From a virus: a stretch of DNA of 24,845 nucleotides. Positions 4,588 to 18,788 of this stretch are shown piece after piece. Made by a program: the position numbers and the translations under genes. Each line of letters begins with the position of its first letter. The first letter of the stretch is position 1. The notes below the pieces were generated by a model that searched no databases, was not told the origin of the DNA, and saw nothing but the letters and a program-made list of their open reading frames with translations. The stretch lies in the IMG/VR virus record IMGVR_UViG_3300005613_000394, positions 1 through 24,845 of that record; one strand, given 5' to 3'.

Positions 4588-6453
4588 TTATTTTCTTCTT
4601 ACTAATCTAGTCTCCCAAATATGGCGACAGTATGGTACGTGAATATTCGTATCGGGCAATGTTCTCCAACCTCCGCGACTTGTAAATACGTCTAAATCCA
4701 TTCCATTATTTAACGCTCTAATCTGCTCAATAGTCCATGATTTAGTTTTGCTCATCTCTACCATCTTTCTACAAAACGGTCTAGTAGTGTCAATTATATC
4801 ACCGCCTTTAACGTCATTACGTTTCACATACTTGTAAACGACAAACACCTCGTTTTTATCCGCTTCTCGTGTTCCTTTGGTGGTTACTCCATTCTCATCA
4901 ATTAAACCCTTTTCAGTTAACGATTCAGTTAACTTTGTATAGTCAGCGGTTGTGATCTTTAACGTGCTTTGTATTTGCTCTGGATCATTACCTCCGATAA
5001 GCATTTTTAAAACGCTTTGCTCTTGTTGAGTAATGAATTTAGATTTTAGTATTTGTTCTTTGTCAAAAGCATCATCCGTTCCGAATATTGGCGTTTGTCT
5101 TGACTTAACCAACTTCAATTCGCCATCATCAATTCCCGTTTCGCTAAACATTTTAACAAGTTTATCGTCTGCGCTCATTACTACCGTTGTAGTAGTAGAT
5201 TCTTCTTTAACTGGCGGATAGCCGAAACGCTCAAGGATTTGATTTTTAGTTAATACGGCTTGCATCAATTGTTCGGTCATTACTCCGCTAATTGTACGCT
5301 TTTTGATTATTTCAATCTTACCGCTTTGTCCGTTAAAATTAAGGATATTAGTAAAATAGTCCTCGTACACTTTTTGCTTTTGATCTACATAGCCATTTTG
5401 CCACGCTTCAATAGCGGTTCTTTTTTCGTCTGCGTTGTTATTAAATCCGTTCTGACCTTTCAATCCAACGATTACTGGATCAACACCATGACCTGTATAA
5501 ATTTCGTCACGAATAGAATTATTTAGATTTATAAATCTATCATCTTGACCATTTGCATTAAGTGGCGTTATCTCAACTCCGCTCTCTTTATCTTCGTTAA
5601 ACGATTTAATCGACCGACCTGCGTTATCTGTACCGTGAAGTACATTATCGAAGTCGTTTACAATTTGTCTTTTTTGTTCGTCTGTCGGTTCTCCGTTGTA
5701 AAAGTTAATCAAGTACCCACTTGAGAAACCGTTCTTAACGTTGTTATAAGTAAAGTTACCAATCTCATAATCAGCCGCCACGTAAGGAATACAAGCGATA
5801 TAGTCAGGTAATGGATAAACGCCTAGGTTAGGTCTGTATTCTTTGTAGTAAACTAAGTATCTTTTATTCTTATCAATTTCGGTTTTATCCTTAGTCCATT
5901 TAAATAATTCAAACGTTGTAAAATCTTCATTTTCTTCTGGCTTCCTTACGCTCCAATCATTTGTATAATAAAAAATAGGGTCTTTCCATTTGTTATCTGC
6001 TTCATTCCATACGGGCTTAGATACACGAATTTTTGAAAAATCTATATGATAAGGTTCAACTTTATCAAGTGCCTTATTGTAAACCATTTCATTCGCAAAA
6101 CCACCCTGAATAATATGATCCTTTACTGTTCTCTCGAATACTTCGTTATCTGTAATTCGATTGATAAAAGATTGAACCGCTATTTTATTAGAAAAATCTA
6201 AACCGATATTTGAATAACTCAATCCTTGACCTGTAATAAAATCACATTTGGAATTAATTATAGCGTTGTTCTTTGCGCTCGAATTGTAAAGATGAATAAG
6301 GAAGTCAGGGTATCGGTTATACCATTCACGATCATTCTTATCGTTTCCGTAAATAACCCAGTCAATACGCTTCTCGATTTTAAATTCAGGCGTTTTATGA
6401 CTTTCAAATGAATGAAGTTTGCCATCACGATAAAGAAATATATTACGGCTCAT
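4588..6453 (-). CDS. Portal protein with MuF-like C-terminal domain
   Basis: This 621-residue protein is a portal subunit, the dodecameric ring through which DNA enters and leaves the capsid. The N-terminal two thirds have the usual portal features: a hydrophilic start, a region of F-I-T-G-Q-G followed by mixed helices, and a tunnel-region sequence around V-D-P-V-I-V-G. The last 60 or so residues carry paired motifs R-P-F-C-R-K-M and V-P-Y-C-R-H-I-W with an R-G-G-W between them, as in the C-terminal part of MuF/SPP1 gp7-type minor head proteins, probably a zinc-binding knob. Portal and minor head functions therefore seem fused, which would explain why no separate minor head gene is visible. 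The gene overlaps the preceding one by 11 bases and is followed after 1 base by the connector. Confidence 0.88.
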   Translation of the reverse strand: MSRNIFLYRDGKLHSFESHKTPEFKIEKRIDWVIYGNDKNDREWYNRYPDFLIHLYNSSAKNNAIINSKCDFITGQGLSYSNIGLDFSNKIAVQSFINRITDNEVFERTVKDHIIQGGFANEMVYNKALDKVEPYHIDFSKIRVSKPVWNEADNKWKDPIFYYTNDWSVRKPEENEDFTTFELFKWTKDKTEIDKNKRYLVYYKEYRPNLGVYPLPDYIACIPYVAADYEIGNFTYNNVKNGFSSGYLINFYNGEPTDEQKRQIVNDFDNVLHGTDNAGRSIKSFNEDKESGVEITPLNANGQDDRFINLNNSIRDEIYTGHGVDPVIVGLKGQNGFNNNADEKRTAIEAWQNGYVDQKQKVYEDYFTNILNFNGQSGKIEIIKKRTISGVMTEQLMQAVLTKNQILERFGYPPVKEESTTTTVVMSADDKLVKMFSETGIDDGELKLVKSRQTPIFGTDDAFDKEQILKSKFITQQEQSVLKMLIGGNDPEQIQSTLKITTADYTKLTESLTEKGLIDENGVTTKGTREADKNEVFVVYKYVKRNDVKGGDIIDTTRPFCRKMVEMSKTKSWTIEQIRALNNGMDLDVFTSRGGWRTLPDTNIHVPYCRHIWETRLVRRK

Positions 6454-6847
6454 TTACTACGTATTGAATTGTTAAATCGTGTTCTATAAAGTTTGAAGTT
6501 TCGGGAGATGCTAATAAAACCATTATCCCTCTTTGAACAATTGCACCACTTAATTCAGGATCTAAATTAGTAGTGCTTTCTTGCTCTCTTACTATGTAAT
6601 TATATCTACCTTCGTTAAATAAAATTAGTGAAGAATTTAGGCGATCGTCAACGCCTTCGGTAATGTTAAATAAATTTGATCTATTCCTAGCTGCTCCAAA
6701 AATTGAAACATCTTGACAAATACAAGTATTACTCGTCTTCGTCTGATCGCTCTGAAACTCGAATAGGTAAATCGGTTCCGCTATCGTTGTCTTCTCCTTT
6801 AGACTTAGTGCGACGTTTTCCGTTGTTGCTCCCTTCGTTAATTTCAT
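6443..6847 (-). CDS. Structural-region protein of unknown function
   Basis: This protein has 134 residues when read from the ATG at 6847; a longer reading from a TTG at 6853 adds only two residues. It starts M-K-L-T-K-G and contains Y-L-F-E-F, an isolated F-N-I-T-E-G-V motif, a Y-N-Y-I-V-R-E-Q-E-S region and T-N-L-D-P. That pattern recurs in small beta-rich proteins beside Bacteroidetes phage capsid genes, although no function is established. It may be a head-decoration or neck protein. Its first 119 bases overlap the 77-residue gene upstream in another frame, and its end overlaps the portal start by 11 bases, so all three are probably co-translated. Confidence 0.7.
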   Translation of the reverse strand: MKLTKGATTENVALSLKEKTTIAEPIYLFEFQSDQTKTSNTCICQDVSIFGAARNRSNLFNITEGVDDRLNSSLILFNEGRYNYIVREQESTTNLDPELSGAIVQRGIMVLLASPETSNFIEHDLTIQYVVNEP

Positions 6848-6962
6848 CTTCAAATATATTTAATCCAAGTTTGGAATAAAGTTCTTCTTTTCCTTCGGTT
6901 ATTTTTAGCATACCGATCTTTGAACCCATTACCAAACCTATAAATTCCTTTTTTATTTTCAT
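6729..6962 (-). CDS. Small protein with charged tail, unknown function
   Basis: This 77-residue protein has a compact N-terminal half (about residues 1-40) with a K-K-E-F-I-G start and an L-G-L-N-I-F-E end, like short hypothetical proteins common in the head modules of Bacteroidetes phages. The second half is acidic, basic and serine-rich, without visible fold, and is encoded by the same DNA as the start of the next gene. The ATG lies just after a terminator-like hairpin. I believe the N-terminal half is a real gene, while the C-terminal half may be shaped mainly by the overlapping frame. No function can be assigned. Confidence 0.55.
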   Translation of the reverse strand: MKIKKEFIGLVMGSKIGMLKITEGKEELYSKLGLNIFEDEINEGSNNGKRRTKSKGEDNDSGTDLPIRVSERSDEDE

Positions 6963-6971
6963 AAAGATAGT

Positions 6972-7002
6972 AAAAAGGGGGTTAATAATTCATCAACCCC
7001 CT
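6972..7002 (-). terminator. Intrinsic terminator after the 173-residue gene
   Basis: On the minus strand an 8-bp perfect stem (AGGGGGTT with AACCCCCT) with an 11-base loop is followed directly by a run of five T. It sits 10 bases after the TAA of the gene ending at 7012 and before the next ATG at 6962. It could end or attenuate transcription so that capsid-region genes are made in larger amounts than the genes downstream. Confidence 0.8.
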
Positions 7003-7011
7003 GATTAATTT

Positions 7012-7533
7012 TTAAGCAATCGACAATCCTGCGATTACCAAAGGATCAACTTCATACGGGGCGTTTCCTGAACGAGCCGTAAATGTCAAAGTATATCCGT
7101 TCATTTCGTTCATAGTCGCTCCAGTTTGTCCTACCGTTCCGTTAAGGTCTGCTCCTTTGTCATAACCGATAGCCCAGTATAAACCGTTCTCATCTTGTAC
7201 GATAATTAAAGTAGGTGAACTTGAAACCAATTTAAACTCAACGTTTTTCGCCGCTGATAATTTAAGCATTGATACAGTTACAACTGTTTCGTAAACTTGA
7301 TTACCATTTTCTTTTGTCATTGTTGTCACAAAGTTTGCGCTCTCCTTTTTAATACCATAACGGTAAAAATCAGTAGCCGCAACTTGTGTCAATGTAGTGA
7401 TCTCACCTGCTGCAATTACGCTAGTAGATTTATCAATATCGCTAAGACCTGTAATAAGGAAAGAATCTTGAACAACTCCCCCTAAACCGTCTTCGCATTC
7501 TTCGGCAAATCCTGCCGTTGGTACACACGCCAT
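7012..7533 (-). CDS. Major tail (tube) protein or head decoration protein candidate
   Basis: This 173-residue, mostly beta-strand protein lacks membrane segments and a signal peptide. The C-terminal half has W-A-I-G-Y-D-K-G, a G-A-T-M-N-E-M-N-G-Y motif and T-F-T-A-R, as in abundant virion proteins of Bacteroidetes phages often annotated as structural or tail-tube. It is flanked by two intrinsic terminator-like hairpins (7552-7572 and 6972-7002), so it sits in a separate transcriptional segment right behind the capsid gene, as expected for a protein needed in many copies. Tail tube is my first choice, capsid decoration the second. N-terminal cysteines (C3, C13) are unusual for a phage virion protein and might be a processing or disulphide feature. 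Confidence 0.55.
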   Translation of the reverse strand: MACVPTAGFAEECEDGLGGVVQDSFLITGLSDIDKSTSVIAAGEITTLTQVAATDFYRYGIKKESANFVTTMTKENGNQVYETVVTVSMLKLSAAKNVEFKLVSSSPTLIIVQDENGLYWAIGYDKGADLNGTVGQTGATMNEMNGYTLTFTARSGNAPYEVDPLVIAGLSIA

Positions 7534-7551
7534 ATTTTTAAGATTTTATAA

Positions 7552-7572
7552 AGAGGGGAATCTCACCCCTCT
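7552..7572 (-). terminator. Intrinsic terminator-like hairpin behind the capsid gene
   Basis: A 7-bp stem (AGAGGGG with CCCCTCT) with a 7-base loop lies in the gap after the major capsid stop codon at 7588. On the minus strand it is followed by TTTATAAAAT rather than a clean U tract, so termination is probably partial. That would suit read-through from the capsid gene into the next gene at reduced level. Confidence 0.6.
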
Positions 7573-7587
7573 CTAGTTATTATTTTA

Positions 7588-8529
7588 TTACGGTACTAAA
7601 GTAAATTCTACAACTTGGTCAGTAAACCAAACTTGTGTTCCTCTTGTCCAATCAGCATCAACTAATACTTTCTTGTTTGTAACTGGATCAACTCGGAAAG
7701 AAAATTCTGTATCGTTTTCTCCATCCATTCCAATGATAAGGTTTGATGGATAAGTTAAGATTGCTCTGTTAGTTCCTCTCAAACCGTAAGTAGGGCGAAT
7801 TTTAACATCTGTACCATAGTACATTGTGTCACCATCTTCTGATTTGTAATGGAACATATTAGCCGCTTTCAATGCAGAAATGTAAAGGTCATACCAAGTT
7901 TTAGGTACATACATTACGTTATCTGTACGCTCTGAAAGTTCCTCAGTACGTGACAACCATAAACCTTCAAGAATTGATAAAATGTTAGCAGCGGTTACTC
8001 CTGTTGCAACTGTTACGCCTCCTGTGTTTCCATCAATTGCGTCACCTGCTGCGTCGATAATTTTCAACCAACCATTGTAACGGTTTAAGTTAGCCGTACC
8101 AGATGCTGTGTCACCTCTCCAATCCGCTACATCAATAGCTTGGATAAGTTTCATGTTTTTCTCTGCGAAATAGATTTCAGCAATTTCTTCAGGCATAACT
8201 TGTTTACCTGTCATTGTGCCTTGCTTTAAAAGGATTTGAGTCCACTTATTTCTAAGATCGTCTAAACACAAATCTTCTGCAATAGCAACTTGCTTTACAG
8301 TGATAGGTTTGTCAGTAAAAGTAGTTGTTCCGCTCGCTGAACGTGAACATCCTGAACCGTCTTGAAATACAACGTCAGTTTCTAAATAATGTAAGTTGGA
8401 AGTTCCTTTTAATCCAACTTGTACAGTTGCTTCGCTCGCCGTTAATTCAGGTGCAACTTGTAAATAACCTACTAAAGGAAAATCTCTATTTTCAATATAG
8501 GCTGCTAGGGCTGATACATCAAATGCCAT
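7588..8529 (-). CDS. Major capsid protein (HK97-fold candidate)
   Basis: This 313-residue protein follows the protease-scaffold gene and precedes a strong structural candidate, the classical place of the major capsid protein. It starts with A-F-D-V-S-A-L-A-A-Y and has alternating beta and helical regions, a central helix with E-E-I-A-E-I-Y, an acidic P-domain-like middle, and a final W-F-T-D-Q-V-V-E-F strand common to Bacteroidetes phage capsid proteins. An HK97 fold is inferred. No N-terminal delta domain is seen because the scaffold sits in the upstream gene. The start is ATG with an A-rich upstream sequence and no Shine-Dalgarno sequence. Confidence 0.82.
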   Translation of the reverse strand: MAFDVSALAAYIENRDFPLVGYLQVAPELTASEATVQVGLKGTSNLHYLETDVVFQDGSGCSRSASGTTTFTDKPITVKQVAIAEDLCLDDLRNKWTQILLKQGTMTGKQVMPEEIAEIYFAEKNMKLIQAIDVADWRGDTASGTANLNRYNGWLKIIDAAGDAIDGNTGGVTVATGVTAANILSILEGLWLSRTEELSERTDNVMYVPKTWYDLYISALKAANMFHYKSEDGDTMYYGTDVKIRPTYGLRGTNRAILTYPSNLIIGMDGENDTEFSFRVDPVTNKKVLVDADWTRGTQVWFTDQVVEFTLVP

Positions 8530-8535
8530 ACTTTT

Positions 8536-9171
8536 TTATTTTAAATTTTTAGTGAATATGTTTTCTTTCTCTTCTTTTTTAAATGGATTGAAAACGGGTT
8601 TAACTGGTGATTTTGTTGGCTCATCCAACAGTTCCTCAAAAATTTCTTTTGAGAAAGTCTTTAACGATTCAAATTGATCATTGATTGATTTTTTAAACTC
8701 AACCATTTCAGATTTAAACGCTTCATTTTCTTCTTTCAAAAATTTGTTTTCTTTTTCCAAACTTTCGATTTTAGAAAATATCTTTTCGCTTTCAATTCGC
8801 TCGATAATTCTTTTAACTTTTTGTTGTTGTGGAGATTCTTCGCCCATTGGTTCAACTACGGGAGCAGCAATTTCTTCGCCATCTTCTGTAACCTCTTTTA
8901 CTTCGGCAATTACACCATCAACTTCAACAACGATAACACGACCATCTTCGAGAATGTACTCACCCATTGGTGCAGCAATAGGATTACCTGCTTCGTCCAT
9001 TACAACGATAGCCGCATCAACTTCAACCGCAGGCTCGATAGTTAACTCTAAGCCGTCTTGTGTTTTTACCATTTCAAATTTTTCATTAACTACTTCCGCT
9101 GCTACTTCTTTAGCCTCTGGATTAGCCGTAAAAAATTCTTTCAATTTATCTTTAATTGATTGTTTTTCCAT
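8536..9171 (-). CDS. Possible nested scaffold gene (internal start)
   Basis: Translation from the internal ATG at 9171, in the same frame as the protease, would give a 211-residue protein made of the linker and coiled-coil scaffold part only. The 19 bases before this ATG are almost only A and T, the kind of initiation region seen before other starts in this window. Nested scaffold genes in the same frame are known in lambda-like phages (C/Nu3). I see the start context and domain boundary, and expression is inferred. Confidence 0.35.
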   Translation of the reverse strand: MEKQSIKDKLKEFFTANPEAKEVAAEVVNEKFEMVKTQDGLELTIEPAVEVDAAIVVMDEAGNPIAAPMGEYILEDGRVIVVEVDGVIAEVKEVTEDGEEIAAPVVEPMGEESPQQQKVKRIIERIESEKIFSKIESLEKENKFLKEENEAFKSEMVEFKKSINDQFESLKTFSKEIFEELLDEPTKSPVKPVFNPFKKEEKENIFTKNLK

Positions 9172-9780
9172 TTGATTATTATTTATTATTGATTCTAATT
9201 CCTTAGTGAAATCCTTATTAAATTTGCGCTCTCTAAAATGACCTTCTATTGAGAAACCTTTGAAAGTTCCGTTTTTAACTTGTTCCCAAATCTTATCATT
9301 TTCGACACGCATTGAAATAAACCAACTTCCGTCTGCTTCAACCTTGAATCCTTTTGGCGGAACTGTTCCACGCTTAGAATCTAAAAAGATTGATTCGCAA
9401 ACAAAAACACCCTCCGCAGGTTGGTCGGATTGGTGCATGATGTTAGTAGATTTATCGAGGGCGTGACGGTGGAAGTTTAGCCAAATCTTTTCGATATTCT
9501 CAGCTAAAAAGACAACGTTATACGCACCACGATAATCGTCATATCTTGGTATCTTCAAGTCTGCGATCATTGCATAACCTGAAATTATACGCTTATCTTC
9601 GTTCTCAACTTTAAAAGCGTTGGAGGTAATTTTGAATTGATCGCCGTTGGTTACAACTTTGAATTTTTGATCAGTAGATGAAAAAGCCACCCAATCAGAT
9701 TCGGTCGCGGGATCATCCACGAGTGCGATTTGAAACTCGGTTGCTTTTTGTTCTGCTAGGTCTAAAACGAAAGTGTCCAT
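8536..9780 (-). CDS. Prohead protease fused to scaffold (XkdF/S78-2-like)
   Basis: In this 414-residue protein, residues about 60-185 form a protease domain of the XkdF (peptidase S78-2) type. I-S-G-Y-A starts the domain, H116 lies in N-I-M-H, there is an acidic E-S pair at 129-130, and the nucleophile candidate S177 lies in G-F-S-I-E-G. Residues about 240-310 are a valine-, glutamate- and proline-rich linker with a dG-E-D-G-like repeat pattern, and residues about 325-395 are a strong coiled coil typical of scaffolds. The protein should direct capsid assembly and then cleave itself and its partners. An in-frame ATG at codon 204 (position 9171), right behind an AT-only stretch, could give a separate 211-residue scaffold. 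The gene follows the tape measure by 35 bases and precedes the capsid gene. Confidence 0.85.
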   Translation of the reverse strand: MDTFVLDLAEQKATEFQIALVDDPATESDWVAFSSTDQKFKVVTNGDQFKITSNAFKVENEDKRIISGYAMIADLKIPRYDDYRGAYNVVFLAENIEKIWLNFHRHALDKSTNIMHQSDQPAEGVFVCESIFLDSKRGTVPPKGFKVEADGSWFISMRVENDKIWEQVKNGTFKGFSIEGHFRERKFNKDFTKELESIINNNQMEKQSIKDKLKEFFTANPEAKEVAAEVVNEKFEMVKTQDGLELTIEPAVEVDAAIVVMDEAGNPIAAPMGEYILEDGRVIVVEVDGVIAEVKEVTEDGEEIAAPVVEPMGEESPQQQKVKRIIERIESEKIFSKIESLEKENKFLKEENEAFKSEMVEFKKSINDQFESLKTFSKEIFEELLDEPTKSPVKPVFNPFKKEEKENIFTKNLK

Positions 9781-9815
9781 ATTTATATAACTATTTTTTT
9801 TTTAATTATGTTATT
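9781..9815. repeat. Intergenic leader repeat, copy 2
   Basis: The short gap between the tape measure and the protease gene is nearly identical to the gap before the tail-chaperone gene (17547-17579). On the minus strand both contain TAACATAATT, a run of nine or ten A, and GTTATA just before the ATG, with about 34 of 37 positions matching. These are the only two copies I found by eye. A regulatory or translational role is possible, for example a strong A-rich initiation region. Confidence 0.6.
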
Positions 9816-11963
9816 TTACCCGAAAGTTGCTTGCTGCTTAATCTTCGCTACCATGCCTTGCGTATCTGTGATATCCTGCTCTAGTACATACACTTTAGTC
9901 GGTGGTGTTATTTGAGTTGAACCTGTATTAAATTGATCAGTATTCGGTGGTGTATTCTCTTTTATTATGTCATCATTTAAACCTCCACTATCTGAAATCC
10001 CACCGCTTGAAACGTCAACCGCTGGAGCGTTTATAATTTTATTAGCTTGCGCTACACCTGACAATACCGCACTTATACCTAAAAGTATAGCAGGAATGTT
10101 TGCAGGGAATGGACCAGTAGTCGCTCCAACTGCCACCGCACCTGAAATAGCTTTAGCCGTATCAATCGCAATTTGTGCAATGGCTACCGCCTTTTCAATT
10201 TTTTGTTGCCTTTGAAGTCGTTTAATTTCTGAATTTGTAAGTTTCTCGCCTGCTTCCTGCTTTTTCTTAATTCGTGCTATTTCTTTATCGTTGGCTATAC
10301 TGTTTATAGATTCGACAATAGATATTAAATGTTCAGCACTTTCAATAGTTGCGGCAACTTGTTGCTCTCTTAATTCACGTTGTTGCTCCGCTAATTCTTT
10401 ATCTGCTTCAAGTTTCTCTTGTCTATATTTTTCCTCTATTTGTGCAAGTTCATATTCTTGCGCTTCTTTCAATTCAGCCGTATTAAGACCAAATTCCTCC
10501 GCATCAATTAATAATTGTTCGTACTTTAATCTAACTGCATCAATTTCTTTCTCTTGATCTTCTAATAAGCTAATTCTATAATCCTCTCTAATCTTTGCGA
10601 TTTGTTCATTTAGCTTTTGCTCTTGTCTTGCTCTCTCTTCTGCTGCTTTTTTAGCTGCTTCCTCTTCGGCTTTAGCTTTTAAATCTGCTTCATTCTCAAC
10701 TATTTCAACTATCTCATCACTTGCTGCTTGTTGCGCTTGTTTACGCTTTTCTAATTGCTCTCTGTTAAATCGTGTAATGTTGTTTTGTGCTTTTAACAAA
10801 GCATCTTCTTCATCTTGTAATGTTTTTTCAAAGGCTGCTACTACTTCGTTATAATCAAACCCCCATGCTTTAGCTTGTTGCTCCGCAGTTTTACCATTCA
10901 TCTTAGCTATGTCCTCAAATAATTGCCTTTGAGATTCCAACTTCAATCTATTACTTTCTAAAACAGATTTTAATTTATCCCGTTCAGCTTCTAAGACTTG
11001 AAGTCTTAAATGCTCCGTAGCCTTGCCCTCTGCATCCAATGTGTCAATTTGCATCTCTAAGGCTCTTATTTCTTCGTCTTTTGCTTTTGAGTATTCCTTA
11101 GATTCTTTTTCGATTTGTGCTAATCGTTCTCTATGCCTTGCTCTATTTGCTTTAGATTGCTTCTCACGTGCAGCTTCGGATTTAGCTTCTTCACCAAACA
11201 ATTTTTCATAGGCTAAAATAACCCAACCAATTGGACCAAGTAGCGCAAGAATAACCGTTCTTAAGTTTTTCCAATCCGAAATGAAGTCTATTATAGGCTT
11301 TTTAAACGCAACAATAGCAGCAACTAAAGCACCTATACCAACAACGATTAATCCAATAGGATTCGCTGCCATTGCAGCGTTTAATGTTCTTTGTACGGCA
11401 GCCATTGCAATAGTTGAGGCTTTTTGTATTTTCTCAAGACCTATCCGCAAGTACATACCTGCAACGGCATCTTTGTTTAAAGCATTTGCTAAAGTCTGAA
11501 CTCCGTTCATTATACCTTGTACGGCTATTACATTTTGAATAGCTTTTTGAACGGCTGCACTTTCAGTACCAAATAAAGCCATTGCTCCCTGTGCTGCCTG
11601 AAATGCTCCACCGATTGCCTGACCTGCACCAATTAAACCGTCTAGTCTTTTCGTGTCACTCGCTAATAACCTAACCCTATTATTAACGTCTGCAATTCTA
11701 TCCTCAAGTTGTGCCGCCTCAACCGCCAACGCTCTAAACTCAGCGCTATTTTCGTCCAACGTATTTAGTTGGTCTTTCATTTCACGCAACTGAGTTTTTA
11801 AACTTTTTGTTGCCGTTGTCGTTTCGCCTATACCTTGAGTAACTTTATCGGTTGACTGTTCGCCAGTTGTTCCGATTTGTTCTAATTCGGTTTTAATTTC
11901 GCCTAACGTCTTCGGTGCGTTACCTGCGTTTATGGTTAGATTTATTGCTGCTACTTCACTCAT
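9816..11963 (-). CDS. Tail tape measure protein
   Basis: This 715-residue protein has the classic tape-measure build. It opens with a helical region (about 1-110) rich in heptads, then a hydrophobic stretch near residues 200-225 (glycine, alanine and isoleucine). A very long lysine- and glutamate-rich coiled coil runs from about 265 to 560, and a second hydrophobic, glycine- and alanine-rich stretch lies near 595-650, followed by a proline-rich end. The protein sets tail length and passes into the cell wall at injection. At about 0.15 nm per residue it would span a tail of roughly 107 nm. It follows the large tail protein by 3 bases. The frameshifted chaperone genes are upstream of two other tail genes rather than immediately next to it, which is less usual. 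Confidence 0.9.
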   Translation of the reverse strand: MSEVAAINLTINAGNAPKTLGEIKTELEQIGTTGEQSTDKVTQGIGETTTATKSLKTQLREMKDQLNTLDENSAEFRALAVEAAQLEDRIADVNNRVRLLASDTKRLDGLIGAGQAIGGAFQAAQGAMALFGTESAAVQKAIQNVIAVQGIMNGVQTLANALNKDAVAGMYLRIGLEKIQKASTIAMAAVQRTLNAAMAANPIGLIVVGIGALVAAIVAFKKPIIDFISDWKNLRTVILALLGPIGWVILAYEKLFGEEAKSEAAREKQSKANRARHRERLAQIEKESKEYSKAKDEEIRALEMQIDTLDAEGKATEHLRLQVLEAERDKLKSVLESNRLKLESQRQLFEDIAKMNGKTAEQQAKAWGFDYNEVVAAFEKTLQDEEDALLKAQNNITRFNREQLEKRKQAQQAASDEIVEIVENEADLKAKAEEEAAKKAAEERARQEQKLNEQIAKIREDYRISLLEDQEKEIDAVRLKYEQLLIDAEEFGLNTAELKEAQEYELAQIEEKYRQEKLEADKELAEQQRELREQQVAATIESAEHLISIVESINSIANDKEIARIKKKQEAGEKLTNSEIKRLQRQQKIEKAVAIAQIAIDTAKAISGAVAVGATTGPFPANIPAILLGISAVLSGVAQANKIINAPAVDVSSGGISDSGGLNDDIIKENTPPNTDQFNTGSTQITPPTKVYVLEQDITDTQGMVAKIKQQATFG

Positions 11964-11966
11964 TGA

Positions 11967-14900
11967 TTATGGATTAATTGTGATAAATTCGTTTGATGAT
12001 ACACATACTAAAATAGTTCCTGCACCTTGCGCGGATACATTTACACTTGTAACACCGTTAACTGTTGTACCTGTCAACGCTCTAATTCTATATTGATTCG
12101 TTGCGGTTTCTTTTCTAAAATACCAGATTTGACCTATTGTATAATTATAGGTTAAACCGTCTAAGTAAATATCTACGGGTGCGCTTGATGCATCTATTAA
12201 ATAGCCTTTTGCCGCGGAATCTAAATACTCGCTTATAGATATGCTCTTTATTGTTGATGCTTGTTTTGGCTCGACTTCTTGATTATTTAAATACGTCTTG
12301 TTTGATTCCGTAACGGTCAAACCATCACAATTGATTAAGGTTACATTTTGTAAATTAGCCGATACAATACAATTATTTGAACTTAATAAATTGATATTAT
12401 TCGCTCCTGAAAATATACGATTTGCATCTCCGTTAACTATTATATTACTAGCTGACTTTGATAGTACGTTATTCGAACCTTGCACTTGTTGCGTATTCGA
12501 ATTATATAAGTTATCGTTCTGCTTTGGATTATTGCTAATTCTTAACAAAGGATTATATTGAGCTTGCGTTACTTGAGTTGTAATAGTTCCGTCTTGAGTG
12601 GCTGGCTCAAAAGTACCTCCCTCACCATTTGCAATTAATACAGTGGATTTAAACGGGCTTACCTCTTTCAATTTAAGAAATTCGCACTTTGTTAAATTGG
12701 TATTTGTGGGATTGAATCCGTTTATTTTATATAGTCTGAAATAAGCATTTTCGAAGTGGTATAAATCCCTAAATGACCATTGATTAAAATCAAGCGGTGT
12801 TATGTGAACAAAAGCCTCTACTATCTTACTATCTTGGTCGGTAATCTCACGAATGAATTGACTATGATATTTATTATATAGATTGTTATCCGTTACCGTA
12901 ATTGCTTCAACTGAATCGTCATAATATACTTCTTTTGGAAGTCCGAAATTTATATCCAATGTAGGATTGTAAGGATCATCAAAATGACCTGCGTAAGGGT
13001 ATTGTATAAACGTGTCACCTGCAGGGTTTGCAATCCTTGAGTGTTTCCAAGGCGGAGAACATGGTTTTAATCCGCCATAGTATAAAGTTCTCCAGTTGAA
13101 ATTGGTACTAACCTTTTGTCCTAAATCGTCAACTTTAACAATAGTAGGCACAACTAAGGTACTTGTTCCCGGTCCTTTGTCTGCTAATGGTGTAGGGCTT
13201 GATGTTAATTTAGATACGAAATTCTTTGTTGTAAATGCATTATTTACTATTATCTCGTCTTGTCCGTAAGTTTCCTCATACGAGTTTAGATATTTATCAT
13301 TCAAATAATCTTTATCGTCTTTGTGCTTATATAGGTAAGTCTTAACGTCAAGCGCACCCATAGGTTTGAAAGTAATTCCTTTATCAATTGATATTTTTGT
13401 ACTTAAATCAACTACATTGCTAGTATAAAATGTATCACGCGGAGCGATTAATAAATTCTTTTCGTTATTCGGATCAATATCTGCGTACAAATTGTATTCC
13501 TTAAAGTAATTCAAAACAAAATCCGTTTGCAATACTTTCGGAACACATCTATAAATATCAAGTAAATTACCCTCCACTAATGAAGTATTGGAAACTTTAT
13601 TGAAAAATACACCTTGTTCAAACGTCATGTCTGCCTGACCATTTGAAAAGACACCGCCAATAGTTCTAAAATAATTAGGATAATCAGTATTGTATTGTGC
13701 GCTCCATACTATTTTGATCGTGTCGCTTGGTGATAATAATAGATTGGAAATCGACCATTTTATTCTATTAGGTGGTTCTTCAAATCTCGCTATATCTCCC
13801 AATATCCCACCTAAGTAAGTTCTGTATTGATCACTCGGATAAGTAGGTGATAAGTCAGTTGATCTATTCCCAACCGCATAAACTCCCGTACCCATTCGCA
13901 TCTCTATTTCTTCGGTCGTGTAAGTAACGCCTGCGCTATGGTCATAAAATAATACTTTGATTTTTACGTCAATATGTCCTACTGATTGTAAACTATTAAT
14001 TGTATCATTCGGTTTAAATCTAGCAGTTAAATCTAAATATCCGTTAATGTCATAATATCCCTTTTGGGCAACCGTATATACACCAGTAGCAGGATTGTAA
14101 TTTGTGCCACCGTCAAATATCTCATTTGCAAATAAAATAGTCGTGTCAGCCCCGTAGCTACCTTTATTTATATTTGCCGTTGTTTCTCCTCCCGTGTCTG
14201 ATGTTTCTGGCGTATCGGCTTTAAATTGCCTTGCTTCAATTTGTGTAAGGTCTAATTTGAATTGCTCAGGACTTGATGGTATTATTAAGTGCTTGAAATG
14301 ATCAGCAAAAGCTGAATCAGTAAATTGATAGGTAAATCCTGCATCTGCAAAAATCCTATCCCAATATTCCTGCGCAAATATAGCGCACCCGATATGCTCT
14401 ACTTTCCAAGTAACGGTATCACTAGAGAAACCAAAATCAATTAATGGATAAATATATCCTTTACCTAATTCAGCTGGAACAAGCGCGCCATCTTCAATAA
14501 TTTGATATATACCATCAGGATCAACACCGCTCGAATACTGTTGTAGTTCAGCCGTTAAAAGATGGTTATACGTGTCTAATCCTTGAACATCTGACAAATA
14601 AAGCCCTTGAATACTTTTAAATAAGTTAGCAAAATTTGAATAAATGGTTATTGAATACTCAACATCTAAATTATTAGTTTTCACCAATTCATTAAGCTGA
14701 CAATAACCCTCAATTACCCGAATAGAATCTACTAAATAAATTACATCAGCCTTAATTAAAGGGTTAAAAGTAGATTCATAAACGTTAATATCGAAGATCA
14801 TCCCGAACACTTTAGCGGCTTCCTTGCTATTCGGTACGGTTATACTTTTCGAATACGTTGCGCTTCTCTTTTCAGGCTCTATAATATCAGCTATTGACCT

Positions 14901-14969
14901 AGTGAAAGACGGATCTAAAGACCTAGACAAAGGTATTTCGTACCCGTTAATAAATAGTTGCTCTCTCAT
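11967..14969 (-). CDS. Large tail/baseplate protein with beta-helix-like segment
   Basis: This 1000-residue protein begins with F-I-N-G-Y-E-I, then a polar N-terminal domain with a K-S-I-T-V-P-N motif, as in large tail proteins that Bacteroidetes phages place before or next to the tape measure. The middle is beta-rich and uncharacterised. Residues about 830-896 hold a short run of V-x-G-N/S-N-type repeats (N-I-I-V-N-G-D, N-N-I-N-L-L-S-S-N-N, T-V-T-E-S-N), which suggests a parallel beta-helix or trimeric spike. The last 70 residues form a separate beta domain. It probably belongs to the baseplate or tail tip. The ATG overlaps the stop codon of the preceding gene (TAATG). The precise role is not proven. 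Confidence 0.7.
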   Translation of the reverse strand: MREQLFINGYEIPLSRSLDPSFTRSIADIIEPEKRSATYSKSITVPNSKEAAKVFGMIFDINVYESTFNPLIKADVIYLVDSIRVIEGYCQLNELVKTNNLDVEYSITIYSNFANLFKSIQGLYLSDVQGLDTYNHLLTAELQQYSSGVDPDGIYQIIEDGALVPAELGKGYIYPLIDFGFSSDTVTWKVEHIGCAIFAQEYWDRIFADAGFTYQFTDSAFADHFKHLIIPSSPEQFKLDLTQIEARQFKADTPETSDTGGETTANINKGSYGADTTILFANEIFDGGTNYNPATGVYTVAQKGYYDINGYLDLTARFKPNDTINSLQSVGHIDVKIKVLFYDHSAGVTYTTEEIEMRMGTGVYAVGNRSTDLSPTYPSDQYRTYLGGILGDIARFEEPPNRIKWSISNLLLSPSDTIKIVWSAQYNTDYPNYFRTIGGVFSNGQADMTFEQGVFFNKVSNTSLVEGNLLDIYRCVPKVLQTDFVLNYFKEYNLYADIDPNNEKNLLIAPRDTFYTSNVVDLSTKISIDKGITFKPMGALDVKTYLYKHKDDKDYLNDKYLNSYEETYGQDEIIVNNAFTTKNFVSKLTSSPTPLADKGPGTSTLVVPTIVKVDDLGQKVSTNFNWRTLYYGGLKPCSPPWKHSRIANPAGDTFIQYPYAGHFDDPYNPTLDINFGLPKEVYYDDSVEAITVTDNNLYNKYHSQFIREITDQDSKIVEAFVHITPLDFNQWSFRDLYHFENAYFRLYKINGFNPTNTNLTKCEFLKLKEVSPFKSTVLIANGEGGTFEPATQDGTITTQVTQAQYNPLLRISNNPKQNDNLYNSNTQQVQGSNNVLSKSASNIIVNGDANRIFSGANNINLLSSNNCIVSANLQNVTLINCDGLTVTESNKTYLNNQEVEPKQASTIKSISISEYLDSAAKGYLIDASSAPVDIYLDGLTYNYTIGQIWYFRKETATNQYRIRALTGTTVNGVTSVNVSAQGAGTILVCVSSNEFITINP

Positions 14970-16240
14970 TATCTTCTTTGTCTAAAATTATCACTTAACT
15001 CTATCTCAATTGAAAAGTTAAACGTCTTATCTACTTCATCCTTTAACTCATTCCAACTTGTAGATTTAATTAAACAAGGTTTGAAATTGTGAACGCCTGA
15101 ACTATCCACGAACTCTAAATAAGCCTGAGGACTAAATGATAATTCTTTTAACCAATCATTCGTTGATTGGTCAATTAATCCGCTTTGTAATGTGATCGAA
15201 TCAGTTGATTTGACGTAATAGTTTACTTTCGTATCGGTAACGTGATTATAAACCAATCCATCCAATGTCAATATATTTCTATTTGTGATATAGGTCTTTC
15301 GCTCTGCGCTTGTTGACTTCTTGCTATCTGCTTTGAAGTTAAACGAATCAAAAGCCCCGTATTCATTTTCGAAGTGAATCCTATACGTTTCGTAAAAGCA
15401 TTCTGTATCTATCTCAAAGTATAGTATTTCACTTACTGGAATTGCACCCGTTCTAAATAGTTGAACGGTATAACTTGCCACCGTTGGAATAATAACGGGT
15501 TGCGCTCCTACTAAAAATGCTCCCGTAATATTGTTCAGACTTTGCGGACTTGTGGCGACTGAATTTAAACGGCTTTGGTCTAGTGATGGGTTTGAATTGT
15601 TCGGTATATCAAAAGTAGAAATTAGTACGCCACTTGCATCATAGGTTTTGACTTGAAGATAATCTACATTATTCGGTGAGCTAGTCATATACCAATGCCA
15701 TCCTAATTGATTTGAATATACTTTGTTATTCTTTTGATTAGTTAGAAATTCTCCTATGCTAGTGGTTAAACAAATGTAATTCTCAAACTCATCATTGTTA
15801 TAAAAATCAATAAATCTATGGTGTTCTAAACTTGCTCCCCATGCGTATTGAATTTTACCAGTATATAGATTAGGATATTGCACGATTGGATCGTCAGCCG
15901 TAAGTCGATACTCTTCTCCGTACTCAACAAAATACTTTATAATAGCGTTGTCAGTTACTCGAATAGCATCCGTATCGTCATACGGTGGTATTGTTTCCTT
16001 TACATAATTCTCTATGATGCTATGCAAGTCTTGTATACCGTATCTGTAAAATGGATCAGGTGATACTTTGGTTCGTATAACCTTGGTTAATCCGCTTATA
16101 TAATCAATGATATTAATATCAAAGATATATTTATAATCAGGCTTCGCCACCGTTACCGCGTTGTTTTGAAATATAACCACATTCATAGGGTTATATACCG
16201 GACTAAAATCTTTATTATCCGTTTTAAGAACTAATGCCAT
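14969..16240 (-). CDS. Tail structural protein, beta-rich
   Basis: This 423-residue, beta-rich protein has no membrane segment. Residues about 30-110 carry Y-K-Y-I-F-D, a conserved P-x-P-x-x-R-Y-G region and an I-I-E-N-Y-V motif, resembling a structural protein family of Bacteroidetes phages that is found between tail-completion and large tail genes. It is co-transcribed with both neighbours, overlapping the upstream gene by 17 bases and the downstream gene by one base. I interpret it as part of the distal tail or baseplate. Specific function unknown. Confidence 0.6.
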   Translation of the reverse strand: MALVLKTDNKDFSPVYNPMNVVIFQNNAVTVAKPDYKYIFDINIIDYISGLTKVIRTKVSPDPFYRYGIQDLHSIIENYVKETIPPYDDTDAIRVTDNAIIKYFVEYGEEYRLTADDPIVQYPNLYTGKIQYAWGASLEHHRFIDFYNNDEFENYICLTTSIGEFLTNQKNNKVYSNQLGWHWYMTSSPNNVDYLQVKTYDASGVLISTFDIPNNSNPSLDQSRLNSVATSPQSLNNITGAFLVGAQPVIIPTVASYTVQLFRTGAIPVSEILYFEIDTECFYETYRIHFENEYGAFDSFNFKADSKKSTSAERKTYITNRNILTLDGLVYNHVTDTKVNYYVKSTDSITLQSGLIDQSTNDWLKELSFSPQAYLEFVDSSGVHNFKPCLIKSTSWNELKDEVDKTFNFSIEIELSDNFRQRR

Positions 16241-16781
16241 CTATTGTATTTTTTAAACTAATTTCTACTTCTCTTGCTCCTGCCTTTTCCAATTTTTTAG
16301 TCAGGTCTTTGATTAAATCCTCGTCAACAATATTGGTAAAGAAATTCGTTGCTGGCTTACCTTGTCTAAATATTGATTCTCTTAAAGCAAAAGGATTGTA
16401 TCCGTTAACTCTTGACCATTCAGTAAGTGCGCTTAATGGCGGCTTTTTATCTTTATATCTAAACGGGCTTGAGGTATTTCTATTTATCCATGCTCCACCG
16501 TCTGCCCTTGCACCTCCTACACCTTGAACGCCTTTATCGACAAACTGCCAATAGTCCTCCATTGTCAACTCGAACTGATAAGCCGAATTAAGGAATTGAA
16601 TATTGAATAGTACCGATTGCTTTAAGGCTTGTGCCGTAATACCATGCACCGCCGTATCTAGTGATCTCCTTAACGATTCTTGTAATTCGTTGCCGAAGTT
16701 TTGTAATACACCCGAAATAGTTTCATCATCTCCAAGTCCTTGAAGTTCTGAATCATCTAATTCGAATAAATTACTTGCCAT
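16224..16781 (-). CDS. Tail-completion/neck-like protein
   Basis: This 185-residue protein has an acidic N-terminus (F-E-L-D-D-S-E-L), a helical region and a Y-W-Q-F-V-D-K-G-V motif near 82-90 followed by glycine-rich and aromatic turns. It recalls HK97 gp10-type tail-completion or minor tail proteins as they appear in Bacteroidetes phages. It is embedded between the tail chaperone and the beta-rich tail protein. The upstream -1 frame product of the chaperone gene ends 11 bases inside this gene. Role inferred from weak motif similarity and context. Confidence 0.55.
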   Translation of the reverse strand: MASNLFELDDSELQGLGDDETISGVLQNFGNELQESLRRSLDTAVHGITAQALKQSVLFNIQFLNSAYQFELTMEDYWQFVDKGVQGVGGARADGGAWINRNTSSPFRYKDKKPPLSALTEWSRVNGYNPFALRESIFRQGKPATNFFTNIVDEDLIKDLTKKLEKAGAREVEISLKNTIDGISS

Positions 16782-17546
16782 ATCTTAATTCATTTTTAAT
16801 TCGCTCTCTTTCCATCTCCTCCGCTTTCACTTCCGATTCTAAAAGCAAGTATTCCAACTTACTTAAAAAATCTATTAAATTCCTTTCACCCGTTGCATCC
16901 CAATTTTCGTTTAATTGTTCGCTTACGTCTTTTATAGTTTTGAACCATCCGTAACGCTTAGCAAGTCGGTTTTTGTTTGGTCTAGTATTTTGTTCATCTC
17001 CTTCAACTTCTGATCTGAATAGTCGTTTAAAATTCTCGTGAACTCTGTTGAGAGATTGAAAAAAAAAACGGCTATTGGATTGGCTACGCTCATTGGTATA
17101 TCCTTAAACTGATCTATCAATTCAATCGTTTGGTAATCTTCTAACTTAATATACTTCTTTCGAAACCATGAATAGTTATAAGGTCGTGCCAAATGGAATA
17201 GGAATAAATGCAAATTAATATCTATATCTTTGGTTGCTTCCATTACTCCAGCGTATTGTGAAGCGGTCAACTTATTCGGATTCAATTCAAATTCAAAGTG
17301 CTGACCGTTCAACCGTATTTCTTTTACGATCTTAGTAGGCTTATCACTTTTAAATAATTGATTGACCTCATTAAGTTTGTCAATACCTATGTTAGCCGCT
17401 TCCTCTTCTGAACATTCAAAAGTAACCGCGGCTAGTTTAATCATCTGCTCAATGGTTTCCAATTCGCTTCCGCTCTTACGTGACAATTTCACACGCTCAA
17501 TGTATTTGCGTATTGTGATGTCTGACCAATTTTTCGGTTGCTTCAT
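16771..17546 (-). CDS. Tail-assembly chaperone, long frameshifted product (gpGT-like)
   Basis: Reading the 204-residue gene at 17546-16932 into a T10 run (17068-17059 on the minus strand) and shifting by -1 opens a second frame that continues without a stop to the TAA at 16773-16771. The fused product has 258 residues: 162 from the first frame and 96 from the second. The second part starts F-Q-S-L-N-R and contains A-K-R-Y-G-W-F-K-T-I followed by a helical, acidic region, typical of tail-chaperone T domains in Bacteroidetes phages. It has no ATG of its own before its last 14 codons, so it cannot easily be made alone. It also fills the 150-base gap that the short gene leaves before the next ATG at 16781. 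This is the standard arrangement of the lambda G/GT genes. Confidence 0.8.
16932..17546 (-). CDS. Tail-assembly chaperone, short product (gpG-like)
   Basis: This 204-residue protein begins M-K-Q-P-K-N-W-S-D-I-T, is mostly helical and acidic, and has no membrane segment. It lies directly behind the large terminase, before the tail proteins. By analogy to lambda G it would bind the tape measure during tail assembly. The T10 run encodes V160-F-F-F163 at a place where it can slip, and the zero-frame product ends 41 codons later. The relation to G is inferred from the frameshift layout and context rather than from clear sequence similarity. Confidence 0.7.
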   Translation of the reverse strand: MKQPKNWSDITIRKYIERVKLSRKSGSELETIEQMIKLAAVTFECSEEEAANIGIDKLNEVNQLFKSDKPTKIVKEIRLNGQHFEFELNPNKLTASQYAGVMEATKDIDINLHLFLFHLARPYNYSWFRKKYIKLEDYQTIELIDQFKDIPMSVANPIAVFFFNLSTEFTRILNDYSDQKLKEMNKILDQTKTDLLSVTDGSKL

Positions 17547-17579
17547 ATCTGTATAACTTATTTTTTTTTAATTATGTTA
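17547..17579. repeat. Intergenic leader repeat, copy 1
   Basis: The gap between the large terminase stop codon and the chaperone ATG is almost the same as at 9781-9815: TAACATAATT, nine A, then TAAGTTATA and ATATG on the minus strand. The terminase TAA lies inside it. The copy begins a morphogenesis transcript segment, as does the other. No Bacteroidetes -7 box (TAnnTTTG) is present in either copy. Confidence 0.6.
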
Positions 17580-18788
17580 ACGGCTTATGTGATAAATTCC
17601 ACTTGACTTCATAGTTTTGTGCGCTTCATTGCATATTGCTCTACTCATTACGTAGTCATCATGTAGACCACTAGGCGCACTATATTTGATTGTCCTAGTC
17701 TTTAGGTTGTATTCATAAGTAAACGCTTCTAATTCGCTTATTTGCCAATCCTGACCTATTATCCCTATCTCCTTATTCTCAAATGCGACTATAAGATTCT
17801 CAACAATTGCTTGTTTGCTTTTGCTTGTCGTTACGAATGGCTTAACCTTTGATTTATTGTAGTTGACTTTATCCCTTATCTGTTCATAAATTGCATCCTG
17901 CGCACCGTTAGATTCAATCAATACATTAGGCTTGTACTTATTTAATTGGGTTACTACGTTGTTAATTATAGTTGACCATTCCAAATGCCGCCAACGCTCG
18001 CAATATACTTCTCTGTTGTTCTGATCTACGATTGTCAAAACTGTGTAATCGTCTGCACGACCTAAGTCGACACCTGCAAATAGTGTTCTCGTTTCTTCTC
18101 CCGTATCTATACATTCCTTTATATTTCTAAATACGCTTGATGCGTCATCTAAGAACTCCGCTAAATACTCTTGTCTAAAGATGTGATCTGGGAGCATACG
18201 CCTTGCATCCTCAATCTCTGACCTTTCAATAAATGGATTATCGAATGAGGTACCATAAAATGAATGATAGTTGTCATTGTTAATGGATTGATTGAAAAGC
18301 GTATAAAATTGATTCTTACCTTTGGGAGTGGATAATAATAAAACCTTTTTACCTTTGACTAGAACGGTAGCCTTTAAGACTTCATTCCATGCTTCTGGCT
18401 TCCAGAATGCCACCTCATCACCTACCAATGCGTCAAACGTTTCACCCCTAATTGAATCGTATGCTTCGGCTGAATAGAATAGTATAACGCTACCTGTATC
18501 AAACTCTATAATCAAATCGGAGTTGTTCATACGAACGACAAAAGGACACTTGCCTAATGCCCTTACTACTTCCTTAAATACTTTCTTGCATTGTTTGTAA
18601 GTCGGAGAGATCCAACCTACTTTCCAGTTGTGATTTTCAATAGCCCATTTTAACGCTTGGTTTTCACCTAGTAGCGTTTTACCGAACTGCCTACCGATTG
18701 ATACAACAAAATACTTACCTTCTCCTTGTATTGCTTTGTGTATCTCTAGTTGCTTCGGATGAGGTTTATATAAAGTTAGCTTCCCCAA
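17577..18788 (-). CDS. terL: Terminase large subunit
   Basis: This 403-residue protein is the ATPase/nuclease motor that packages DNA into proheads. The ATPase part has the Walker A-type sequence G32-R-Q-F-G-K-T38, the Walker B acidic pair D124-E125 in L-V-G-D-E-V, and the coupling motif S153-T-P-K-G. The nuclease part of the RNase H type has D241 in G-V-D-L-G-R, a second acidic residue in L-I-E-S-N-G, and a D-D pair in G-L-H-D-D-Y near the C-terminus. The start is a TTG that overlaps the small-subunit gene by 13 bases; no ATG is available before the first conserved motif (L-Y-K-P-H-P). Length and order agree with the family. Confidence 0.95.
   Translation of the reverse strand: MGKLTLYKPHPKQLEIHKAIQGEGKYFVVSIGRQFGKTLLGENQALKWAIENHNWKVGWISPTYKQCKKVFKEVVRALGKCPFVVRMNNSDLIIEFDTGSVILFYSAEAYDSIRGETFDALVGDEVAFWKPEAWNEVLKATVLVKGKKVLLLSTPKGKNQFYTLFNQSINNDNYHSFYGTSFDNPFIERSEIEDARRMLPDHIFRQEYLAEFLDDASSVFRNIKECIDTGEETRTLFAGVDLGRADDYTVLTIVDQNNREVYCERWRHLEWSTIINNVVTQLNKYKPNVLIESNGAQDAIYEQIRDKVNYNKSKVKPFVTTSKSKQAIVENLIVAFENKEIGIIGQDWQISELEAFTYEYNLKTRTIKYSAPSGLHDDYVMSRAICNEAHKTMKSSGIYHISR

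Follow-up and report, generated by a model that had tools for sequence, protein, structure and literature searches.

Frameshifted tail chaperones are a textbook example of ribosomal recoding, and dnaX, compared between Thermus and Escherichia coli, illustrates that the same pair of products can be obtained through different machines. Run-length thresholds for slippage differ between bacteria, and the nine-T threshold stems from hosts other than the ones at issue here. As described so far, transcriptional slippage involves runs of more than eight T (PMC3711429), selection against runs becomes apparent at a length of nine in a large share of bacterial genomes (PMC1088944), and poly-T makes E. 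coli RNA polymerase more prone to slip (PMC6260861). The described systems closest to the locus analyzed here are the gpG/gpGT pair of phage lambda, the gpE/gpE+E′ pair of phage P2, the Shigella gene mxiE, and a pair of adjoining genes in Nonlabens phage P12024S.

The window, a virus record of 24,845 bases (IMGVR_UViG_3300005613_000394, positions 1 to 24,845), had been proposed in a sequence-only reading to carry a programmed −1 frameshift in a tail assembly chaperone gene (Table 1). On the minus strand, an uninterrupted T10 (17068-17059) lies inside a 204-codon ORF (17546-16932), and the −1 frame runs on from there for 96 codons to a TAA at 16773-16771, which overlaps the ATG of the next gene (16781) by 11 bases. 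The extension fills the 150-base gap between the zero-frame stop and the next gene, and its sole ATG opens its final 14 codons. All these coordinates and counts were correct as originally given. The position of the run was likewise exact, but its description as near the end of the frame was loose: about 42 zero-frame codons lie downstream of it, and this long zero-frame tail is itself conserved. The RYGWF motif reported in the extension is real and is conserved as YGW[FY] in near relatives and as [WY]GW in nearly all.

Table 1. Features of the frameshift locus and its neighbors in the window.
Feature	Coordinates	Strand	Evidence
Probable tape measure protein, 715 aa	9816..11963	-	Several tape-measure PHROGs, best E 8e-5
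Next gene, 185 aa; start overlaps the −1 stop by 11 bases	16224..16781	-	Same order in L002-L004
−1 frame extension, 96 codons plus TAA, T-like domain with RYGWF	16771..17061	-	T domain at −1 in all relatives
Predicted G-T fusion product, 258 aa, from the two frames	16771..17546	-	
Zero-frame ORF, 204 aa, G-like product	16932..17546	-	ORF list and relatives; AlphaFold2 model pLDDT 85
Dual-coded overlap: zero-frame tail and start of −1 extension	16932..17058	-	Both frames open beyond synonymous expectation
T10 slip run, codons GTT TTT TTT TTC	17059..17068	-	T9/T10 in 224/224 intact related loci
Terminase large subunit, upstream gene	17577..18788	-	phrog_2 E 5e-48; PF03237

Three genes (16781-11967) separate the −1 extension from the probable tape measure gene downstream, and the lambda-type placement directly upstream of the tape measure gene was thus not found. 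The minus-strand order at 4588-18788 is unusual: terminase, frameshift gene, tail-like genes, and tape measure gene, followed by head protease, capsid candidate, and portal. An A10 at 9794-9803 and an A9 at 17561-17569 (coding strand) are noncoding, lie immediately 5′ of gene starts, and are probably A-rich leaders.

The extension itself, used as the first query, recovered three relatives; each carries T10 at the corresponding position and keeps the −1 frame open, and their zero-frame tails are similar as well. With the zero-frame protein as query, the search relied on one peptide touching the slip site, which demands FF, and on another located elsewhere; two later searches with T-domain peptides, which are unable to select for the T run, returned 80 loci each. 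Altogether, 224 intact locus records from IMG/VR contigs, two Bacteroidota MAGs, and the cultured Nonlabens phages P12024S/L were analyzed, the majority of them found via the T-domain peptides. The records form 61 clusters at 80% identity and 33 at 50%, and clusters are the safe counting unit because some records represent one contig fetched twice. All 224 share the same layout, with a zero-frame ORF, a second, open ORF at −1, and T9 (203 records) or T10 (21 records) between them, the run being never shorter or longer and the two frames overlapping over 22-73 codons; an in-frame or +1 arrangement of the second ORF was found in none of the 224. The comparison of homologs that the sequence-only reading had suggested as a check thus upheld its central proposal, a −1 transition joining G-like and T-like domains in a Bacteroidota phage, in every relative found.

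Scanning of genomes with the T-domain profile yielded two Bacteroidota MAGs with the layout; a genome scan with the fused profile returned no relatives, and tblastn searches of INPHARED with single sequences (either frame, or two distant fused members) found nothing. P12024S was reached via a 423-aa neighbor protein. The most distant T domains vary too much for their alignment to be usable in scanning. One locus, set apart from the intact ones (L125:2440-3270), retains its T9, but a TAA upstream of the run ends the zero frame prematurely, owing to either error or decay. In Flavobacterium phage 6H (L151:10047-10927, minus strand), checked as a second isolate, gp10 resembles the G fold; its gene contains no T9, and downstream of it there is coding potential in two other frames, which could reflect more than one frameshift or sequencing indels.

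Runs of at least nine T occur once in 173 kb of other coding sequence of the related loci, as opposed to 61 of 61 representatives at the slip site. Elsewhere in the genes of these loci, long runs of A or T are scarcer than expected (for example, A9 or longer, 1 versus 6.2 expected; T8, 0 versus 3.7), which counts in favor of RNA polymerase slippage at the site. In a dual-coding test, the protein and codon usage of one frame were fixed, synonymous codons were chosen at random, and the chance of the other frame staying open over the overlap was determined. Summed over 37 clusters, log10 P came to −53 (zero frame) and −64 (−1 frame), values that overstate the significance because the clusters are related; nevertheless, both frames are clearly kept open across the overlap. 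From these comparisons, we consider it very probable that the T run is the site of a programmed frameshift that would yield a short G and a long G-T product.

The best explanation of how the frame is changed, and in our assessment a reasonably probable one, is RNA polymerase slippage with the addition of one U as the main mechanism. Faithful mRNA would be translated into the 204-aa G-like protein, whereas realignment of RNA polymerase on the T run, with one U added, would produce an mRNA that is read in the −1 frame past the run and gives the 258-aa G-T fusion. In this scheme, which is modeled on lambda gpG/gpGT, the tape measure protein would be coated by the abundant short form, and tail-tube subunits would be recruited by the rarer long one. 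The pattern of conservation around the run bears on this choice. The floor of nine T holds across three codon phases, and the residues to either side of the run vary: codon 1 encodes V, G, L, I, A, C, F, Y, T, or D, and codon 4 encodes C, L, W, Y, F, or S, the bases that complete the nine T being constant. Among the 61 representatives, eight T are the invariant columns, with no others in the scanned flanks. Where codon 1 gives one T, codon 4 gives two in 13 of 13 clusters, compared with 7 of 48 otherwise (Fisher p 1e-8, 80% clustering); this flank compensation is suggestive only, because the codon-1 T was lost independently just 4 times in the tree, 2 of them on well-supported branches, and a paired test is unable to reach significance. 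A possible need for a hydrophobic F or L at the end of the run in the −1 product could account in part for the maintenance of T9, a point against the polymerase reading.

The fusion could instead arise by −1 ribosomal frameshifting, with tandem Phe-tRNAs slipping on U UUU UUU within the run in the absence of strong stimulators, as in lambda or P2. The heptamer, which conforms to the slippery X XXY YYZ pattern, is in frame in all relatives, and its universal presence counts against the polymerase reading. P2 E/E′ slips at T TTT TTG in the context GGT TTT TTG TCG, compared with GGT TTT TTT TTG TCG in one clade of this family, and a low rate of unstimulated slip would fit the chaperone ratio. Transcriptional slippage at such runs, by comparison, reaches 15-30% (PMC4256274), above the lambda G:GT ratio of ~30:1 (PMC5009743), which again weighs against RNA polymerase. 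However, the ribosome does not need nine T: polymerase is favored because at least nine T are always kept, though ribosomal slip needs at most seven, and the wobble base of the third codon and the base after the heptamer would be free to vary, yet are always T. In particular, a T-to-C change that is silent in both frames and retains the heptamer as U UUU UUC was seen in 0 of 39 eligible clusters versus 5.2 expected (P 0.004 at 80% clustering; P 0.03 at 60% and P 0.09 at 50%), and the conserved Phe codons elsewhere in the T domain are TTC in 36-38% of clusters. Nor were the usual stimulators seen in the first 37 clusters, of which one has a Shine-Dalgarno-like site upstream and none has downstream structure with z < −2 in 50- and 80-base windows, pseudoknots being outside the folding model. 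Such stimulators are usual for ribosomal frameshifting but not strictly required. For Citrobacter tssM, their lack was argued in the same way, and slippage was then demonstrated on RNA (PMC4256274). On balance, unstimulated ribosomal frameshifting is the main rival but appears less probable than RNA polymerase slippage. The lambda G/GT logic invoked by the sequence-only reading is thus supported for the two-frame architecture and less so for ribosomal slip as the default, as at least nine T and the lack of stimulators favor RNA polymerase slippage, which that reading had mentioned as a further possibility.

Less probable still, transcriptional and ribosomal slippage might add up to the needed ratio, the run of at least nine T being kept for both; it does satisfy the published requirements of each (PMC3711429), but no observation demands two mechanisms. 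It is very improbable that the T part is translated on its own, from an internal or coupled start, without any fusion: the −1 ORF of P12024S holds an ATG and is annotated as gp39, but the only ATG in the window lies 14 codons before the end of the extension, and conservation of the −1 frame begins at the T run, and on these two grounds we rejected a separate T gene. We give even less credence to a homopolymer assembly or sequencing error, a decayed gene, or DNA-level phase variation. Long homopolymers are indeed error-prone and frequent in phase variation, but independent assemblies and cultured isolates agree on the frame relation across all 224 loci, without a single in-frame or +1 case, and T9 and T10 differ through flanking substitutions rather than indels; sequencing error, pseudogene, and phase variation were rejected as a general explanation, being contradicted by the comparative data.

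Assignment of the pair to the tail assembly chaperones draws on its architecture and on weak profile and fold matches, and is weakly supported. Pfam and PHROG searches with the window proteins gave no convincing family match for this pair; below threshold, PF10109 (Phage_TAC_7) was matched by one member at E 0.0027 and the tail protein family phrog_166 at E 3e-4. Compared with predicted viral structures, the G model (pLDDT 85) matched P12024S gp38 at E 1e-10 and, weakly, an annotated tail assembly chaperone at E 0.014, whereas fold searches of the PDB with the G and T models returned nothing; confidence is low for the T model (pLDDT 68), which is helical. The name tail assembly chaperone given in the sequence-only reading is retained as a predicted role: the pair resembles G/G-T in architecture, the PF10109 and phrog_166 matches are sub-threshold, the one structure match to an annotated chaperone is weak, and the gene does not sit beside the tape measure gene.

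We see about even chances that, in a broad group of Bacteroidota phages, the ratio of short to long chaperone is set at RNA polymerase by way of an invariant stretch of nine or more T, a task for which lambda and P2 rely on the ribosome. If polymerase slippage is indeed at work, evolution would keep the product pair rather than the mechanism, and the family would provide a natural test of what sets the run-length thresholds of RNA polymerases. The literature searched, which included few subscription papers, contained no report of transcriptional slippage in a tail chaperone. Pfam cut-offs are not reached by the family, and its one isolate is split into two PHROGs of unknown function; therefore, its two-frame nature has gone unannotated. 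With a cultured phage and host available (Nonlabens phage P12024S/L), the question of mechanism is directly testable.

Like lambda gpG/gpGT, this family has overlapping ORFs that give a short product and a predicted −1 fusion, and the tape measure gene belongs to the same late operon. In lambda, however, the shift is ribosomal and occurs at GGGAAAG just before the G stop (PMC5009743), as opposed to T9/T10 and an overlap of 22-73 codons here; there is also no detectable sequence match between the two, and in the window three genes intervene before the probable tape measure gene. In Shigella mxiE, too, two overlapping ORFs are fused when an extra U is added within a U run (PMC1088944), but mxiE is a bacterial regulator gene in which this was shown experimentally, whereas the present case is a gene of a phage structural module and is deduced from sequence. 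P12024S gp38 and gp39 are direct relatives, with profile hits for each of the two frames (E 5e-10 and 3e-8), the G fold match (E 1e-10), T9, the −1 frame, and a position adjoining the large terminase gene, but they are annotated as two separate hypothetical proteins, overlap by 24 codons, and have CTT as codon 1. The two genes (L068:8952-9646, corresponding to NC_018271.1 23136-23830; T9 at L068:9394-9402) resemble one G/G-T pair; the annotated gp40 lies on the other strand and covers the end of gp39. A very similar codon context is that of P2 gpE/gpE+E′ (Phage_TAC_7 type), likewise a −1 fusion at a T run, and weak PF10109 matches occur in this family; the P2 site, however, is T6G and is annotated as translational, whereas every relative here has at least nine T, and the G and T domains are larger. 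The slip context of P2 gene E (L231:1376-1390) is three T shorter than that of one clade of this family, offering a natural run-length comparison.
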